From Smittium mucronatum (Eukaryota > Kickxellomycota > Harpellomycetes > Harpellales > Legeriomycetaceae), in the NCBI GenBank assembly GCA_001953115.1, contig LSSL01002426.1:1-49512 (forward strand): a DNA stretch of 49,512 nt. The letters are read 5' to 3'. The notes below the pieces were generated by a model. It did not search any database and was not told the origin of the DNA. It saw nothing but the letters and a program-made list of their open reading frames with translations. Positions 11,879 to 22,558 of the stretch are shown piece by piece. Numbering within the stretch: position 1 is the stretch's first letter; each line of letters starts with the position of its first letter. The position numbers and the translations under genes were made by a program.

Positions 11879-13363
11879 TTAGCTCAAAGTTAATTGTACA
11901 AATCGTAGAAAAGTGAGGCTTTTTTATAAGTGGGTATCACTGAATTTTCACTTAAATACCCATTTTTTCGGTAGTTCAGTGAGTCCCATCCAAAATGTAA
12001 ACATTCCATAGCCCAGAAAATACGTGTTGTTCCATTTAACCAAGATTTAAAAATAAATAAAACAGAGAGTTAGATTATTAATCATATTTTTATCCCGAAT
12101 TGAAGTGAAATGGCATTGTTGTTGTTTATTAGACATCACTTTTGAGTTGATTAAAGTTATATGACTCCAACATACACATACTAAATACAACTTATCAATT
12201 TATAAGCATCAATGTTCATTATCATTAATGATTTTGAGTTTTAAGTAACAAATGTCATTATATTTTTTATTATAAGATTTATTAATAAAACACAAAAGAT
12301 TTACTTAATATAGCTTTAAAAAAATAAAAAAAAACTATTCAGGTTCGTAACAGCCCACTGATATATTATATATAGTTATATATGTCCGGCTTTACTTTTT
12401 GAAGATTCACGCAATCAACCAAATAGTTTATACAAATTATTCTAAATCCAAATTTACACATAATATATATATATAATGTACTATGATAAACATGAACTTG
12501 AGTGAAAGAAATGTTATCTTTTATAGAAGATGTATTTTGATTGTTAAAAATAATTCCCGTCGATAGTAAGTCAGATATCAAAATAGCTCATTAAACCCCT
12601 ACAATAATTTAATCAAAGAACCGTCTTTTATTGAATCCCATCATTTCTAGAATTAAATATTTCAAAGATAATGATCCTAACCAGTAGTTATTGATATGAT
12701 TTCGAATGTACTACAAATATCTCAAACATGTGATAACCCAACTTCAAAGATATAACAAGTTTTCAAAGGTTATGGTTAACTAGCACGAATGTTATAACTG
12801 ATCAACCTTCTCAATTTAGTAAAAATCTTTATAAAAATCCAATACAATTCACTTAAATTAAAGGGTACAATATACAAACAATAGATTCTTTAGAACAATT
12901 AAAGATAAAATTTCTTCTAGTACCTTGCTCTTACATCCATTTCGCTCAAAAATTTGTACATGAGCAGGCTTCCACAAATACATTCTGTTTTAAAACAATA
13001 AAGAGACGCTCTTTGTTTTGTTTTGTTTTTTTCAATAAGTTTTATTATGTGCTTTTTAATTGATTTTTTTGAAAAAGTCTCACGACTGTAGATAACCTAA
13101 AAAATAAAACAAACAACATTTAATCAATTTATAATAAAAATTATTAGAAGAATATCAGCCATTCTCGTTTAGAAATCTTTTTAAACAATTAGAAAAAAAA
13201 CCTTATCTTTTTTCTACAGGCATAGCCAAATATACTGACTACATATACATTGATTCTAACTTATATCAATAGAGCAATAATACTAGCATCGATTTTACGT
13301 CTAAACTATAGAATTGTGAAATTTTCATAAAGAAAATAGTCAAATACTGATTTTTTTAAAATA

Positions 13364-14638: not shown

Positions 14639-16810
14639 TTAAGGCATTTTTGAAGGAATATTAGTTATCCTTGATTTAAGATTTCTCCTTTCTGAAGGTT
14701 CATCAGATCTATTATAGTGTACATATAACATAGTCTTCTCAGAGTTGTACTTAGCCGCTTCGTTAGCAGCCTCTTTTTGCACATACACAAATTGAAGTTT
14801 TTTCTTGCTAGGTTTTTTACAATCAGTATCTACAGAATTACAAAAGACCCCATTTGAATCCATTTCTTTCAATAGGGAGCCATTTTCGCATCTATTATTC
14901 CCCCCAATATCATTAGCAGCAGAACAATTGTTGGTGGTCTTGATCCCGTTAGCTATACACGATTTTGTGGAAATGACGAATTTTATTGCTCTTGTTTTCT
15001 TTATCTTTTTGGATATTTTCCTAGAGACAACATATTTGGTACCAAGAATCCCTTTTTTATTTTCCCCTTTAGATCTTCCTTGGAAATTACCAAATTCTGA
15101 TTTTTTTCTCAGAAAAAAGTTGTTTTGAATTAGATACTTTTCAAAGAATCTTCCTTTTAATTCATCCTCTAGAGTGTTTTTTATACCTTGGTTTGAATAG
15201 AAGATAAAATCTTTCAACAGATCAGAATTGGATGATTCAGGCAAAATGTAGATATAATTGTCATCACCAAACAAAGACACAGGTTTGTATATCAAATCTG
15301 GGATTTCAAATGGCTTCAAGGATGGGAGTACATGATCAGCTATAACCCGAGTAAAATCTTGCTTAATTAAATCACTCATGTCACAAGTCTTTAATAAATC
15401 GTACCAATAAGCATTTTTTCCGACAATAGAAATCTCAGACTCAAGTTTATTTCTACTTAAACTTTCTTCTGGATTGGTAAAACCAATTTGACTTCTATTG
15501 GTGTATATACAGCACTTTGGAATGCTCCATGAGTTTAGTTGATAGAAATCCATAGTTTTAGAGACAGGTTTAATGTTTAAATAAACACTAGAATTAAACT
15601 CCATTATAATTCTTTTCTTAATGTCATACATGGCTTTGATCAGCTTCCTATGAACAACATTTGTTCTTCTTTTAAAGAGGGATTTACTGGTTGTGGATAA
15701 GGATAAAAGGCCTGGTTTTTTAATATAGCCATTTTTTAGATTCGATTTTCGACCCAATTCTTTTTTAAAGCCATTAGGCGAATTAACTGATGATCTCCTC
15801 TGAAAATATTGATTATCCTGTAAATTTTGAGTGCAACCCGAAAGAATATTTTCGGTAAACTGCTCCAAAGACATATCTTGGTAAATAGCAGTGTTCGACA
15901 TAGTTTGAAGAGTATGACTATCCAGTGAGTTGTTTCTGAAATAGGAGCGATATTTATTTTGGCCAGAAAGGGTTTGTTGAGGAAAAAATTCTGAATTGAC
16001 CCCTAAACTCTTTTTTAAAGCAAGTCCGGAGCCATAAGCCGATCCACCTGAATCAAATGATCTCCTTTCTTTAAATCTCAGAGAATCCGCCCTATCATTA
16101 AAAACAGTAGCTTTGTTAGAAACACTAATCTTTGGAAATAGTTCAGGTGACGAGTTGCATTGGTCAAGAGGATAAGGATAGTTTCCCTCGTGTAAAACAG
16201 GCTCAAAAGATGGGAAAACATTTTCTACAATTCGGTAATCTTTATAGAGACTATCATCAAAAAGATTCGATTTGGGCACAGGATGGCTATTGAAGTGGTG
16301 GAAATCATCCCCTAATTGAAAATTGGTGAAAGGATTGCCATGAGTTAACGGATCCAAGTAATCTGGAATACAAAAGTCACTATGCGATGTCATGATACCA
16401 TTCTTATCCCAAAAATGATTGAAAGATTGATCAGTTATATATTTATCAGGGTTTTCGGTATAGTCAGAAACAACAACGGGTGATCTTTTAATGTAATCTG
16501 CCCCTAGAAAATTCTCAGAATTATCAGCGACGTCAAAACGAGAACATAGGCCATCAACTCTAAGGGCTTCGTATTCAGTATTTAGATAGTTTCCGACAAG
16601 GCTTTCATTTTTATACAAGGATTCTTCAGCTGAGCCTATGGTCCTAATATTGGCATCTGATGTAAATGATTTAGTTTTGTTGGAGTTTGGACTTTGTGTT
16701 TGATTTAAAGAAACACTTGATTGGATCCCTAAAAGCTCTTCAAATGAATCGAATACATTGAAATATATGTTTTCACTGGGATGCTGTATAGAATTTGATT
16801 TCCTCTCCAT
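14639..16810 (-). CDS. Hypothetical 723-residue basic, low-complexity protein
   Basis: One uninterrupted ORF from a true ATG (16808-16810) to TAA, by far the longest host frame here. I do not recognise the family. Residues 1-340 are Ser/Asn/Asp-rich and look disordered. They contain two RRxS-type motifs (ERRSFDS about 249, QRRSSVNS about 338) that could be basophilic kinase sites. A basic stretch at about 378-400 (KSLFKRRTNVVHRKLIKAMY) leads into a more ordered block, about 400-570, with mixed hydrophobic segments (YWYDLLKTCDMSDLIKQDF; FGDDNYIYILPES). The tail has lysine clusters at about 597-610 and 665-672 that could be nuclear-localisation signals. There is no signal peptide or membrane segment. 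A regulatory or nuclear role is only a guess. CCC lies 11 nt before the ATG. The retrotransposon inserted about 290 bp upstream may have displaced promoter sequence. Confidence 0.85.
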   Translation of the reverse strand: MERKSNSIQHPSENIYFNVFDSFEELLGIQSSVSLNQTQSPNSNKTKSFTSDANIRTIGSAEESLYKNESLVGNYLNTEYEALRVDGLCSRFDVADNSENFLGADYIKRSPVVVSDYTENPDKYITDQSFNHFWDKNGIMTSHSDFCIPDYLDPLTHGNPFTNFQLGDDFHHFNSHPVPKSNLFDDSLYKDYRIVENVFPSFEPVLHEGNYPYPLDQCNSSPELFPKISVSNKATVFNDRADSLRFKERRSFDSGGSAYGSGLALKKSLGVNSEFFPQQTLSGQNKYRSYFRNNSLDSHTLQTMSNTAIYQDMSLEQFTENILSGCTQNLQDNQYFQRRSSVNSPNGFKKELGRKSNLKNGYIKKPGLLSLSTTSKSLFKRRTNVVHRKLIKAMYDIKKRIIMEFNSSVYLNIKPVSKTMDFYQLNSWSIPKCCIYTNRSQIGFTNPEESLSRNKLESEISIVGKNAYWYDLLKTCDMSDLIKQDFTRVIADHVLPSLKPFEIPDLIYKPVSLFGDDNYIYILPESSNSDLLKDFIFYSNQGIKNTLEDELKGRFFEKYLIQNNFFLRKKSEFGNFQGRSKGENKKGILGTKYVVSRKISKKIKKTRAIKFVISTKSCIANGIKTTNNCSAANDIGGNNRCENGSLLKEMDSNGVFCNSVDTDCKKPSKKKLQFVYVQKEAANEAAKYNSEKTMLYVHYNRSDEPSERRNLKSRITNIPSKMP

Positions 16811-17099: not shown

Positions 17100-17104
17100 A
17101 AAGT
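17100..17104. repeat. Target-site duplication AAAGT (left)
   Basis: AAAGT directly abuts the left LTR and is repeated exactly at 22554-22558 after the right LTR. A 5-bp duplication is normal for Ty3/gypsy integrases and fixes the element ends. Confidence 0.9.
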
Positions 17105-17639
17105 AATAAAATCCTTACTCTTACTTGCTGTTGGATTTATGAAAATTTATTAAATATCTTAAGTAGTGAATGAATATCCAAAATAAAAGATCTAAATTTA
17201 GAATTTGATTTCTATTCTTCGTCGGATGCTCGATGATCTCTCCCGATCTTTTCTCGTGCTTTAAATAAAGTTTTGAAAGCCTTCCAAACACAAAATGGTC
17301 AGAAATATATCCTTATGGGTCCTACTCGTTACAGGATCCTTTATAATAATAATCATTCCTTAATAATGCACCTTTATGTTTTGGTGCAGATTTTCCCAAC
17401 AACTGATGCCAAACTACTGGGAAATGGCTAAAATAGGTCTACATGCATGTTCAGCGTTAGTCTCATAGGTCTATCCAGTGATGTAACATCCCCCTGCATT
17501 AAACATCCTCTCGTTGTAAATAATAATGTGTAAAGTAAATAAATAAATAAAAAGTAACCAATAATAAATGTGTTTATGTATCCATAGACCAATGGCTTCT
17601 GTTACAAAAAAAATAGCCTATGCATATGGATATTTTACT
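17105..17639 (-). repeat. 3' LTR (535 bp)
   Basis: Identical to 22019-22553 except at one base. Read in element sense it starts AGTAAAATATCC and ends GGATTTTATT. The ends form a short imperfect inverted repeat but lack TG...CA. A minus-strand AATAAA (plus 17146-17151) about 40 nt before the LTR end is a candidate poly(A) signal. I cannot place U3, R and U5 from sequence alone. Confidence 0.97.
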
Positions 17640-17648
17640 CTCCCCCAC
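17640..17648 (-). other. Polypurine tract (plus-strand primer)
   Basis: In element sense GTGGGGGAG lies directly between the TAA stop codon and the first base of the 3' LTR, the position expected for the polypurine tract that primes plus-strand synthesis. One T interrupts the purines. Confidence 0.85.
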
Positions 17649-20600
17649 TTAAATTTGCCTTATGCGAAATGGCTTGAGCCGACTTAAATGAACTTTTATG
17701 ACTTTTCCATCCTCATTTTGGACTCCGTAGGTATTGCTTTTGCAGCACCTGATAACCCGAAAAGGACCCTCATATCTTGGATTTTGTTTTGGAGAAAAAT
17801 TTCCTTTTCGCAACTGATGGTTTAAGACCATAACTAGATCACCAATTCTGTAAACTTCTTTCGTCAAAGATGAAATCTTATCTCTTTCAAGTGAGACTCT
17901 ATCCCCCGAAACTCCTAAAATTTCTATAATTCTTTCAGTATTTCTCTCCACTTCCTCTGTTTCGTTTATTGGGTGGCTTCCTGTGTTTCCAAACATCAGT
18001 GAATATGGAGCCATATTCGTGGTATTGTTCTTTTTCGTTCTCAAGCCCCATAAGATTCTTGGAAGGTATTTATCCCAATTTTTCCAATCTTTTCCAACAC
18101 TTTTATTTAACGAATATCTGATAGTACGATTTAGTCGTTCTACTTGACCATTCCACTCAGGCTGGTACGCGGGCAATATATTAACCCTGATTTTCTGTGA
18201 TTTACAATATTCTTGGAATATTCGAGACATATAACAGCTTCCCTGGTCAACTGTGATTTCCTGTGGTGGCCCAAAAATTGAAACTATGTTTTCGAACCTA
18301 TCTTTTACCACAGATCCTGTTGCATTTCGGATAGACTCTACAATAGGAAACCTAGTAAGATGTTCTATGAAACAGCTGATATATGTGTTTCCTTCTTCCG
18401 ACATCGGAAAGGGGCCTAAAATATCCGCGCTCCACTTCTCGAAAATGGAAGATATTCCACTCCTTCCACTAAATTTATACTTTGGTTTTCTCAGGTCAAA
18501 TTTTTGACACTCTATGCAGCTTTTGACATATTCAGATATTTCTTTATACAAAAAAGGTCTCCATACCTTTTCTCTCAGCCAATTATAGACCGCTTTCGCT
18601 TCGAAATGTCCCCCGTTGTCGTGAAGAGCCTTGTAAAAGGTAGCTGCTTCTTTATACCTCATTACAACCCGTAAAAGTTTACCCCCATTGATTCTGTACA
18701 ATTTTGAATCTCTAATAATAAAGTTTTTTATGTATTGCCTCCATGCCTTGTTTTTGTTCCCTTCGTCAGATCCTTCGAGAAATTCTTTGACCTTCTTCAG
18801 CTTCATATCCTTTGAATCTCCGTCACCATAATAGTAGCATTCTTGAGGTCTTGAAAGATAATCTGCTGCTGCATTATCCTTCCCTTTCCGGTGTAAGATC
18901 AAACAGTCGAATTCAGCTAGCATCTGCTTCCATCTAACTATCCTCCCTGTCATATCTTTGGCTCGATATAAACTAGCCACCGCAGAGTTATCTGTATACA
19001 CTGTAAATTTTCTTCCTAACAAATACGATCGGAAATGTTTTAGAGCTGAGACCACGGCCAATGCTTCTCTCTCGTAGTTTTGGTAATTCCTTTCAGCCGA
19101 ACTCAACTTTCTAGAGTAGTATGCTATCGGTTGTTCTTGCTGTTCTAAAACCGCTCCTACTGCCACTGTAGATGCATCTGTCGATAATATGAACTGAAAT
19201 TCGTCTTTTGGCATAACCAGAACAGGAGCATTCGAGAGTAGTTGCTTCATCAAATCGAAGCTTGCCTGGCATTCTTCCGTCCAATCAAATCGCTTAGATT
19301 TTTTTATTAACCCCTGTATTGGCTCCATTTTTTGAGTAAAATTTGGTACAAACTTCCTAAAATATGAACAAAATCCCACAAATGACCTTGCTTCTTTTAA
19401 ATTCTTTGGACGAGATCGTACTAGTAAACTATCTATTTTTGCAGGATCAGGCTTAATTCCTGATTTTGTAACTAAATGTCCCAGATATTTGAACTCATCC
19501 TGAGTGAAAGAACATTTTTTTAAGTTTAGACCCACATTCCACTTCCTACAACGCTCAAATATCAGATTAAGGTCCACTATGTGCTGTTCTAATGTTTCTG
19601 ATGCCAGACATATATCATCCAAGTAAATTATTATTCCTTTAACTAATAAATCAGCAAATATCCTTTCCATAGTCTTTTGGAAAAATGATGGTGCATTGGT
19701 TAAACCAAAAGGCAATCTTGTAAACTGGAAGACCCCTACGGGTGATATGAATCCGCAATATTTTTTTGTAGACTCGGACAATGGTATCTGCCAATATCCA
19801 CTGAAGCAATCTAGTGTTGTAAAGTATCTTTTCCCAGACAAGCGATCCAAGCAGTCATCGATTCTAGGTAATGGAAAATAATCCTTTTCGCATAAGAGAT
19901 TTAATTCCCTAAAGTTGACACAAAATCTCACTGATCCATTAGCCTTCTTTGCTAAAACGATAGGGAAACACCACTGTGAGCTAGACTCCTCGATTATGTT
20001 AGCAGAGATCATTTTCTTGATTTCTTCTTTTATTGTTGAATGTTCATCTTTTGAAAATCTACGAAGCCTGCTTACTATTGGTTGTTGTTCCAATGGTACA
20101 TTAATACTATACTCAACTCCATGCATTCCTTTCAATTTGAGAATATTGTCAACAAATACATCTGAATATGATGAAACCAATTCTTTTATCTGTTTCGGAG
20201 CCTCAAACTCTCCTTTCTCTCCATAACCAGTAACCTCTGTTTCCTGACTCCCGGTCAACTCACTCAATAAAATTTCCTTCTCAAGCTCAAGCTCAATTTC
20301 ACTGTCACTACTGTATTCACTGGCTTCTGATTCTTCATTGGAGCTACTTTCATCATCCGAATTCCAAACTTGGAATTTTCCTTTAATAATTTCTTTTTTT
20401 GGATACATTTGCAATTCTATTGTTTTATCTCCATCCTTAAATTTGTAAACGTCTTTGGAATAGTCTATTATTCCTCTCATTCCGACTATTGCATCTCTAC
20501 CTAAAATTAGTGGAACCGCGCAGTCTTCTAATACTAAAAATTCTATTATGCGAGATGTATCTCTCGTGAATTGCACGCATAGACTAACTTTGCTCAGTAT

Positions 20601-21980
20601 TGATAGTTCTTTGCCTCCTACCGGAACTATCGACGTTTCGTTTGCCACTTTTTGAGGTACTGCGCCCAATTTCTTAAGCAATTTTCCTCCTACCAGGCTG
20701 CAAGACGCCCCTGAGTCTATTACTATCATTGAGTCAACTCCTCCTATTTTAACGGGAACATACGCACCTGTTTCGTTTTGATTATGTTGGGTCACCACCT
20801 CGCCTAGATTAACCTTATTTTTCATTCCAGAAATCTTACTGGCTATACTCCTTATCTCGGATTTTCGGCCTTTCAAGTAGTCTCTAATAGGAACTTGTAT
20901 AATCATATCCAAAAATTCGTCTCCTTTTTTTGCATCCTCAACTACTTTTTTTTTTACTAATTTCTTTTTGCGCAATGTTTTTTTCGAATCCTTGGACTTG
21001 GTAGTATTTTTAGGAGGGATAAAAACAATCTCAGAGCTCTCGGGGTTCATCAATTCTTCCACTCTCATTCGTTTTTGTGCTCCAAGTATTTCCTGTTTAT
21101 TAGACGAAACTTCCACAAACATTCCCGATTGTACGGAATTATGGTTTTCTACAGAGCTCCCGCCTTCATATTTTGGCCTACATTCGTTAGCGTAGTGTCC
21201 CGTTTTGTTACAATTATAGCATATCACAGAGCTACGATCCTTTTTTGCTCTACCTCCATTTTTCACCAAAAGTGTCAATTCAGATAGCTGTCTTGTTAAA
21301 TCTCTGATTACATCTTCGTCATTTCCCTGATTTCTTCCACCATCCAAACTATTTTTCCCAAGAGAATAGGGTTTCACTTCTCTTCTCTCAAAGTTGACTT
21401 TGATCGATTTATCCTTTGTATCTTCCAATGTTTTATCGATTTCACTTCTAATTGAATACAGCTTCAGAAAAATATCCATCATCCTTCCAAGTTTTGGTAT
21501 AGCCTTTTCGCTTCTAGAAAAGACTTCAAACGCCATCCTGGGATCAGATTTTGTGACGATTTCCTTATAAATTCTTTGAACCTGTTCCTCAGTCTTCATA
21601 TTTCCTGCTACTAATTTTTCTATCCTTCTAAACTCTTGGTTAAAGTAAGAAAAATCAGAAAAATCCTCAGGTTTTAGCTTCTCCAAATCCTTTAGGGTAA
21701 ATTCTATTCTCTTTTTCGTCACCGGAATTTTTTCCGGAAAGTTATCCTGCAATTTCTTTGTCCATTCTTCAAAGGTCCATTCTTCGCTTTCCGGAGTCGT
21801 TTCCTCTGTGCTCATTAACCATAAATAAGCATCTCCATCAAGCCATTCCTTAAAGACATCCAAACGTGTGGTTTCCTCCCATCCCTTTAGATTACTAATT
21901 TTAGAGAATCTTCGTATCCATACTGAGGTGTTTTCCCCTGCGAACTTTGTTGGCAATCCTTCAAACGATATTCCTGACAT
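17649..21980 (-). CDS. Gag-Pol polyprotein, Ty3/gypsy
   Basis: 1443 residues from the first ATG (21978-21980). The frame is open a few codons further to TTG at 21989, but no ATG precedes, so I start here. Residue numbers below count from that TTG; subtract 3 for the ATG start. Gag about 1-250, then a zinc knuckle C257-x2-C-x4-H-x4-C270. The aspartic protease active site is DSGA 425-428. An acidic Ser/Glu linker spans 544-572. The RT has D727 and YLDD 789-792. RNase H shows D938 (STDAS), E973/E975 and D1000 (YTDN). Integrase has H1123-x4-H1128, C1158-x2-C1161 and a D1189-x58-D1248-x35-E1284 triad, then a GPF motif at 1408-1410. There is no chromodomain and no frameshift between gag and pol, so the Gag:Pol ratio must be set some other way. 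It carries out reverse transcription in cytoplasmic particles and nuclear integration. All motifs are intact. Confidence 0.97.
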   Translation of the reverse strand: MSGISFEGLPTKFAGENTSVWIRRFSKISNLKGWEETTRLDVFKEWLDGDAYLWLMSTEETTPESEEWTFEEWTKKLQDNFPEKIPVTKKRIEFTLKDLEKLKPEDFSDFSYFNQEFRRIEKLVAGNMKTEEQVQRIYKEIVTKSDPRMAFEVFSRSEKAIPKLGRMMDIFLKLYSIRSEIDKTLEDTKDKSIKVNFERREVKPYSLGKNSLDGGRNQGNDEDVIRDLTRQLSELTLLVKNGGRAKKDRSSVICYNCNKTGHYANECRPKYEGGSSVENHNSVQSGMFVEVSSNKQEILGAQKRMRVEELMNPESSEIVFIPPKNTTKSKDSKKTLRKKKLVKKKVVEDAKKGDEFLDMIIQVPIRDYLKGRKSEIRSIASKISGMKNKVNLGEVVTQHNQNETGAYVPVKIGGVDSMIVIDSGASCSLVGGKLLKKLGAVPQKVANETSIVPVGGKELSILSKVSLCVQFTRDTSRIIEFLVLEDCAVPLILGRDAIVGMRGIIDYSKDVYKFKDGDKTIELQMYPKKEIIKGKFQVWNSDDESSSNEESEASEYSSDSEIELELEKEILLSELTGSQETEVTGYGEKGEFEAPKQIKELVSSYSDVFVDNILKLKGMHGVEYSINVPLEQQPIVSRLRRFSKDEHSTIKEEIKKMISANIIEESSSQWCFPIVLAKKANGSVRFCVNFRELNLLCEKDYFPLPRIDDCLDRLSGKRYFTTLDCFSGYWQIPLSESTKKYCGFISPVGVFQFTRLPFGLTNAPSFFQKTMERIFADLLVKGIIIYLDDICLASETLEQHIVDLNLIFERCRKWNVGLNLKKCSFTQDEFKYLGHLVTKSGIKPDPAKIDSLLVRSRPKNLKEARSFVGFCSYFRKFVPNFTQKMEPIQGLIKKSKRFDWTEECQASFDLMKQLLSNAPVLVMPKDEFQFILSTDASTVAVGAVLEQQEQPIAYYSRKLSSAERNYQNYEREALAVVSALKHFRSYLLGRKFTVYTDNSAVASLYRAKDMTGRIVRWKQMLAEFDCLILHRKGKDNAAADYLSRPQECYYYGDGDSKDMKLKKVKEFLEGSDEGNKNKAWRQYIKNFIIRDSKLYRINGGKLLRVVMRYKEAATFYKALHDNGGHFEAKAVYNWLREKVWRPFLYKEISEYVKSCIECQKFDLRKPKYKFSGRSGISSIFEKWSADILGPFPMSEEGNTYISCFIEHLTRFPIVESIRNATGSVVKDRFENIVSIFGPPQEITVDQGSCYMSRIFQEYCKSQKIRVNILPAYQPEWNGQVERLNRTIRYSLNKSVGKDWKNWDKYLPRILWGLRTKKNNTTNMAPYSLMFGNTGSHPINETEEVERNTERIIEILGVSGDRVSLERDKISSLTKEVYRIGDLVMVLNHQLRKGNFSPKQNPRYEGPFRVIRCCKSNTYGVQNEDGKVIKVHLSRLKPFRIRQI

Positions 21981-22001
21981 ATTATCCAAAAGTAAATCCC
22001 T

Positions 22002-22018
22002 GTGGTGCTGATAACGCC
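22002..22018 (-). other. Primer-binding site, tRNA-Ile anticodon-arm type
   Basis: It directly follows the 5' LTR. In element sense it reads GGCGTTATCAGCACCAC. The plus strand at 22003-22019 folds exactly like a tRNA anticodon arm: stem TGGTG, loop CTGATAA (U33 and purine 37 in place), stem CGCCA. As I recall eukaryotic tRNA-Ile(AAU), this arm is the same except for the wobble base: A, modified to inosine, there and G here. Read conventionally as a tRNA ending in CGCCA, the required C61 and T-loop are missing. So a fragment of tRNA-Ile may be the primer. Self-priming by the hairpin is an alternative. Confidence 0.55.
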
Positions 22019-22553
22019 AATAAAATCCTTACTCTTACTTGCTGTTGGATTTATGAAAATTTATTAAATATCTTAAGTAGTGAATGAATATCCAAAATAA
22101 AAGATCTAAATTTAGAATTTGATTTCTATTCTTCGTCGGATGCTCCATGATCTCTCCCGATCTTTTCTCGTGCTTTAAATAAAGTTTTGAAAGCCTTCCA
22201 AACACAAAATGGTCAGAAATATATCCTTATGGGTCCTACTCGTTACAGGATCCTTTATAATAATAATCATTCCTTAATAATGCACCTTTATGTTTTGGTG
22301 CAGATTTTCCCAACAACTGATGCCAAACTACTGGGAAATGGCTAAAATAGGTCTACATGCATGTTCAGCGTTAGTCTCATAGGTCTATCCAGTGATGTAA
22401 CATCCCCCTGCATTAAACATCCTCTCGTTGTAAATAATAATGTGTAAAGTAAATAAATAAATAAAAAGTAACCAATAATAAATGTGTTTATGTATCCATA
22501 GACCAATGGCTTCTGTTACAAAAAAAATAGCCTATGCATATGGATATTTTACT
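22019..22553 (-). repeat. 5' LTR (535 bp)
   Basis: Promoter-bearing LTR in element sense, 534 of 535 bases shared with the 3' LTR (C at 22146 versus G at 17232). It contains TATTTATTTATTTAC and ATTGG stretches that could be promoter elements, not assignable with confidence. Same AG...TT termini as its partner. Confidence 0.97.
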
Positions 22554-22558
22554 AAAGT
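22554..22558. repeat. Target-site duplication AAAGT (right)
   Basis: Exact copy of 17100-17104 immediately after the right LTR. The uninterrupted target would read through AAAGT into GACTCAATTC. Confidence 0.9.

Follow-up and report, generated by a model that had tools for sequence, protein, structure and literature searches.

In this study, we describe a complete LTR retrotransposon from the Harpellales gut fungus Smittium mucronatum whose minus-strand primer-binding site (PBS) is very probably served by a cut tRNA-Ile(IAU), and which nevertheless belongs to the Ty3/gypsy superfamily, for which tRNA 3′ ends are the primers described (PMC7879559). A candidate PBS that lies directly after the LTR and is complementary to the anticodon arm of a tRNA is found in four families with LTR pairs in this genome.

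The element and its predicted primer-binding site

The element occupies positions 17105-22553 on the minus strand of the window, by which we mean the whole analysed contig of 49,512 bases, and has the following features:

22554..22558, minus strand: 5′ copy of the target-site duplication, ACTTT (element sense)
22019..22553, minus strand: 5′ LTR, 535 bp, flanked by the target-site duplication and identical (100%) to the 3′ LTR
22002..22018, minus strand: predicted PBS, complementary to tRNA-Ile(AAU) positions 26-42 in the arm alignment with host genes
22010..22010, plus strand: base opposite position 34, G on the plus strand (A in the tRNA gene) and C in the element
17649..21980, minus strand: gag-pol open frame from the first ATG, with CCHC knuckle, protease, RT, RNase H and integrase (P0001)
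17640..17648, minus strand: polypurine tract GTGGGGGAG, directly before the 3′ LTR
17105..17639, minus strand: 3′ LTR, 535 bp, identical to the 5′ LTR
17100..17104, minus strand: 3′ copy of the target-site duplication, ACTTT (element sense)

In line with the earlier note, which had called it Ty3/gypsy, the element is placed in this superfamily (Metaviridae) by its domain order and by its closest match, Ty3. The gag-pol frame is intact and single, running for 1,446 codons from a TTG with the first ATG 3 codons later, and encodes an Asp protease (411-499), RT (681-838), RNase H (903-1027) and integrase (1118-1277); the best PDB match of its Pol is Ty3-G Gag-Pol, with 330.7 bits over 647-1426. 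Paired LTRs, a short target duplication and a polypurine tract, as looked for in Ty3/gypsy elements, are all present, and the target duplication of Ty3 is likewise 5 bp long. Membership of Ty1/copia (genus Hemivirus) is contradicted by the position of the integrase, which follows RNase H. The window element therefore resembles Ty3 and other Metaviridae in domain order, RT and integrase and differs from them in the primer region. Since its placement rests on the proteins, a poor match to the 3′ end of a tRNA represents a variant trait and gives no ground for exclusion.

The LTRs of the window element start with AG and end with TT, not TG..CA, and their outer ends (AGTAAAATATCC / GGATTTTATT) form an imperfect inverted repeat. 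Relatives of these LTRs elsewhere in the genome (L057-L081) are solo or partial copies with 68-100% identity, and in 12 of the 14 related copies that align to the LTR end, ..TTTTATT is followed by unrelated flanks. One viral-contig scan with alignment confirmed no relatives of the element outside this genome. Beside the element, the window holds a 723-codon open frame (14639-16810, minus strand) with no Pfam match at E 0.001. The assembly searched comprises 73.8 Mb in 2,957 contigs and is incomplete, as the published S. mucronatum assembly is given as 102 Mb (PMC5954228).

The predicted PBS falls within GTGGTGCTGATAACGCCAA (22002-22020, plus strand), which occurs a single time in the assembly. 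In element sense, the 5′ LTR ends in ..TTTTATT and is followed directly by GGCGTTATCAGCACCAC. The site had first been described as lying next to the 5′ LTR; it does adjoin it, but is not wholly outside, because the LTR spans 22019-22553 and the last two bases of the site (22019-22020) are thus LTR and not internal. These are the final TT of the LTR in element sense, which stand opposite tRNA positions 43-44. The stem within the site, TGGTG/CGCCA, has the five base pairs first ascribed to it, four of them Watson-Crick and one G.U, and can be called perfect only if wobble counts.

Host tRNA-Ile(AAU) reads GTGGTGCTAATAACGCCAA at positions 26-44. Nine genes for it were found, with a tRNA-Asp called alongside eight and a tRNA-Glu also alongside five. 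When these genes were aligned with 22002-22020, the 17 nt after the 5′ LTR together with the last two LTR bases matched positions 26-44 at 18 of 19 places. The sole difference is at position 34, which is A in all nine tRNA-Ile genes and G in the element, just as would follow from the earlier proposal that tRNA-Ile(AAU) carries the same arm with A34. The chance of at least 18/19 matches to any stretch of ~45 tRNAs in five registers is ~3e-6, a figure computed before other loci with the same site were counted.

Ile-type and Lys-type sites across the genome

We searched the whole assembly for the Ile arm with position 34 left open. At up to one mismatch, 15 places were identified, namely nine tRNA genes, one tRNA relic and five others; the ten tRNA genes or relic all have A34, and the five element or remnant places all have G34. 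Four of the five non-tRNA places (the window, C798, C1690 and C2111) have paired LTRs, with the site following immediately on the 5′ LTR. The loci beyond the window are as follows:

C798: LTR ~305 bp, target-site duplication AAGGA, Ile-type site after the 5′ LTR
C1690: LTR 294, target-site duplication GACAC, Ile-type site after the 5′ LTR
C2111: LTR 352 with an identical pair, target-site duplication ACTAT, Ile-type site after the 5′ LTR
C15: remnant with an Ile-type site, without LTR pair or 150-codon frame
C581:7355: older copy with a two-mismatch Ile-type site, 4 nt past the point where the alignment of an LTR-like pair (82% identity) ends

All five of these additional loci have G34, although some sites are slightly changed. 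C798, C1690 and C2111 share 33-40% Pol identity with the window element, which makes them separate families. At up to two mismatches, the search returned 36 places (21 of them with two) against nine in a reversed control, so that the two-mismatch places are mostly background. Of these 21, C581:7355 alone was counted, since it is flanked by LTR-like repeats and by matches to gypsy proteins, with gypsy fragments downstream of the site; the other 20 include some with A34-type letters. Two further candidates were set aside: L018 (C581:13323) carries A34 and is a degraded tRNA-Ile-like relic, not an element site, and L019/L087 (C895) resembles the site, with no LTR pair found, and was left out of the count. 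Under a slightly different pattern, C705:7673-7690 shows one mismatch to the arm and T at position 34, and is neither called as a tRNA gene nor part of a known element.

What had been presented as one element using tRNA-Ile has to be widened to several families, with tRNA-Lys(CUU) fitting others in the same register as the Ile-type sites. In a related gypsy copy, C2004, no Ile site is seen even with two mismatches allowed. Between a T-run and the gag ATG, the 5′ end of this copy (13209-13225) reads TGAAATTAAGAGTCTCA, which is complementary to positions 27-43 of tRNA-Lys(CUU), its anticodon arm, with one mismatch, at 40; the LTR end of this copy was inferred and not taken from an LTR pair. Searching for the Lys arm at up to one mismatch, with position 40 left open, gave 32 places against four in a reversed control. 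These are 13 tRNA genes (judged by context), five gypsy 5′ ends and 14 that were not placed. At extrapolated gypsy 5′ ends, the Lys arm is found at C773:59064, C1028:9996, C2149:5475 and C2888:32275 (one mismatch).

The 14 unplaced Lys-arm places comprise a second one in C1028, one each in C428, C2234 and C2373, and ten with one mismatch. The two in C1028 (9996-10012 and 10601-10617) are exact matches on the same strand, 605 bp apart, as if the 5′ end had been duplicated or two elements nested. Those at C428:147, C2234:692 and C2373:7273 are also exact and, by the context test, are not tRNA genes; among the matches listed, no RT match falls on these three contigs.

To define the bounds of the match, we tabulated seven sites position by position, six of Ile type and the Lys-type site of C2004. 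Site and tRNA agree in 7/7 at positions 44, 43, 42, 41, 39-35, 33-30 and 27, in 6/7 at 29 and 28, and in 5/7 at 40, and beyond the arm in 2/7 at both 26 and 45. At position 34, the tRNA gene is matched in none of the six Ile sites and in the one Lys site. The match consists of the anticodon arm and little else, with a sharp start at 27 and end at 44. Opposite the LTR end lies position 43 in two cases (the window and C798) and position 44 in two others (C1690 and C2111), which would put the 3′ end of the primer at C42 or A43; alternatively, one base kept or lost at primer removal could cause this difference. The LTR ends themselves vary by one base among families, with either TT followed by GGCG or CT followed by TGGCG. 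The distance from site to RT is 2036-2111 nt in the eight copies, Ile and Lys taken together, with an RT match that begins at profile position 16 or earlier; in C773, where the RT match starts at profile position 115, it is 2274 nt.

Half-tRNA sites mark a subset of gypsy copies. Scoring 32 of 502 first-look candidates yielded 31 gypsy copies, four with the Ile site, five with the Lys site and 22 with neither within the allowed mismatches. Many of these 22 arm-less copies matched over only part of the protein. Six of them, two in C1333 and one each in C2512, C2488, C1051 and C2181, have stop-free frames of 1,192-1,468 codons, and so other primers are probably also in use. Two other 17-nt likenesses to tRNAs (tRNA-Ser in L052 and mitochondrial tRNA-Tyr in L075), from a scan of the retrieved loci in which four window copies were left out and tRNA genes masked, are at chance level, with 3.7 expected.

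A proposed priming scheme, position 34 and other primers

Considering these sites together, we infer a scheme that involves tRNA cutting, priming, editing of A34 and a stop at position 26. tRNA-Ile(IAU) would be cut 3′ of the anticodon stem to leave a 3′ end near C42 or A43, and the anticodon arm of the fragment (27-43) would pair with the 17 nt after the 5′ LTR, inosine-34 standing opposite C. Reverse transcriptase would then extend the tRNA-Ile fragment into U5. During plus-strand synthesis, the arm would be copied back into DNA, with inosine recorded as G, until copying halts at G26 of the tRNA. G26 is commonly modified in eukaryotic tRNAs, and the 5′ bound of the site, beside position 26, fits a stop at modified G26. 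Related families in the same genome would follow the same scheme with tRNA-Lys(CUU). Counted against this mechanism is the predicted cut site at 42/43, which differs from that of copia, whose tRNA is cut near 39/40. As a wider and frankly tentative proposal from these sequence comparisons, half-tRNA priming may extend across a whole Ty3/gypsy lineage here, with Ile(IAU) and Lys(CUU) interchanged in the register 27-43; this would entail that hosts provide a specific pool of tRNA pieces ending near 43, that unrelated retrotransposons have converged on this pool, and that inosine is written into the element in each copying round.

The inosine footprint proposed from the window alone has a counterpart in every Ile-type site compared across the genome, all six of which read G at position 34, where inosine-34 would be read. 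In the Lys site read, where the tRNA has C34, gene and site agree. Only A34 was found among the nuclear tRNA-Ile genes with this arm. The genome also contains four deaminase-like places, assigned at the level of PF00383 and not more finely, to ADAT2 or ADAT3. Pairing between the window site and the arm is calculated at -31.3 kcal/mol with I34 treated as G, versus -24.9 kcal/mol with A34, and a site matched to the gene would pair at -29.0 kcal/mol with A34. G34 is predicted both by inosine copying and by selection for pairing, and the C opposite I34 may have been kept by such selection rather than copied.

It is conceivable, if in our view somewhat short of probable, that a half tRNA-Ile does prime, but that an ancestor acquired the C opposite position 34 a single time and pairing or descent has since preserved it; the base would then not document repeated copying of inosine. 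The families are homologous, and the six G34 sites may therefore share one ancestral site and not represent six independent events; moreover, C pairs best with inosine treated as G. Nothing counts against this reading, and with or without it site and gene differ at precisely the position at which the mature tRNA should differ from its gene.

The earlier note considered a conventional tRNA 3′ end unlikely, and our results agree. Were the 3′ end of another tRNA (..TGATAACG-CCA) the primer, the likeness to the Ile arm would be due to chance, which we regard as very improbable. Although the site starts with TGG in element sense, like conventional sites, the best tRNA 3′ end, that of tRNA-Ser(UGA), matches at only 12/17 (13 in C2111, 11 in C581), whereas at the six Ile sites this comparison gives the Ile arm 14-16/17, with 16/17 in the window. 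The Lys-type site has no TGG, and its best tRNA 3′ end matches at 8/17. This test covered ~15 nuclear tRNA species from the incomplete assembly. A search for a T-loop with TGATAACG at up to one mismatch produced 24 matches (one exact, at C2008:15557) against 30 in the reversed control, and a search for the paired acceptor, covering stems free of G.U pairs, produced three against four, none coinciding with the T-loop matches. Two one-mismatch T-loop matches near the 5′ ends of the C1333 copies lie in element sense and hence are not tRNA-sense sites. No tRNA combining a T-loop with a paired TGATAAC acceptor strand emerged from the incomplete assembly.

We attach hardly any weight to a mitochondrial or other tRNA-Ile with a true GAU anticodon, for which inosine would be uninvolved. 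CTGATAA is indeed the tRNA-Ile(GAU) loop, and the mitochondrial-type tRNA genes clustered on C2957 (L025) include one for this tRNA; however, the stem of its arm (TTTTGTTTGATAAGCAAAA) mismatches the site, and no G34 tRNA gene with the stem of the site was seen at up to two mismatches in the incomplete assembly. Self-priming as in Tf1/sushi, in which the 5′ end of the element RNA folds back on the site, occurs in some fungal Ty3/gypsy elements (PMC7175516) but is most unlikely here, as no long complement of the PBS exists anywhere in the LTR in four families, the longest being 5-7 nt, which shuffled LTRs equal in 98, 75, 70 and 16.5% of trials.

Relation to known half-tRNA systems

Priming by a cut tRNA-Ile(IAU) can be set beside several known systems. 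In Drosophila copia and yeast Ty5, a cut tRNA primes internally, by its anticodon region (PMC5371799), and half-tRNA priming is described as marking hemiviruses (PMC8515867). Copia and Ty5 use initiator tRNA-Met and are Ty1/copia elements, in contrast to the Ile and Lys tRNAs that would serve Ty3/gypsy elements here. In plants, the Ty1/copia lineage Bianca has a PBS complementary to a half tRNA-Ile in which A34 is edited to inosine, and the same plant survey found half-tRNA use in Ty1/copia only (Neumann et al. 2019, PMC6317226). Bianca and the Smittium gypsy elements would thus have in common a half tRNA-Ile with I34, although Bianca is from the other superfamily and another kingdom. The novelty claimed at the outset consequently appears to stand for use in Ty3/gypsy and falls for the edited half tRNA-Ile itself. 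A fungal Ty1/copia element, FunCo1, has the PBS ATTAAGAGTCT, called an internal region of tRNA-Lys, with no mention of halves in the account consulted (PMC5445492). By our own reading, this site would be the CUU arm: it falls inside the stretch complementary to the anticodon arm of tRNA-Lys(CUU), like the Lys-type sites here, whereas FunCo1 itself belongs to Ty1/copia.

Other gypsy elements with unassigned primers are on record. DGLT-A, a Ty3/gypsy element of Dictyostelium, has a TGG-type site, as does the window element, and no matching tRNA was found for it in the account consulted (PMC5006619); Cryptococcus Tcn2-5 are gypsy elements reported without a known primer (PMC7175516). In our partial coverage of the literature, we found no report of half-tRNA priming in Ty3/gypsy, although gypsy elements of Candida or Yarrowia may have been so described elsewhere, and a word search for transpos- and gypsy in the accessible text of the S. 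mucronatum genome paper returned nothing (PMC5954228). Inosine-tolerant half-tRNA sites are known, then, and it is their use in Ty3/gypsy, in several families and with two tRNAs, that looks new.

A search for PBSs by the 3′ ends of tRNA genes alone would miss sites of this kind, and DGLT-A and Tcn2-5 therefore merit a second look. If our reading is true, the switch to half-tRNA priming would not be peculiar to Ty1/copia, and the tRNA would be exchangeable while the register stays, the Ile and Lys arms being the same two as in some plant and fungal Ty1/copia lineages. Through position 34, tRNA editing would then become legible in genomic DNA.
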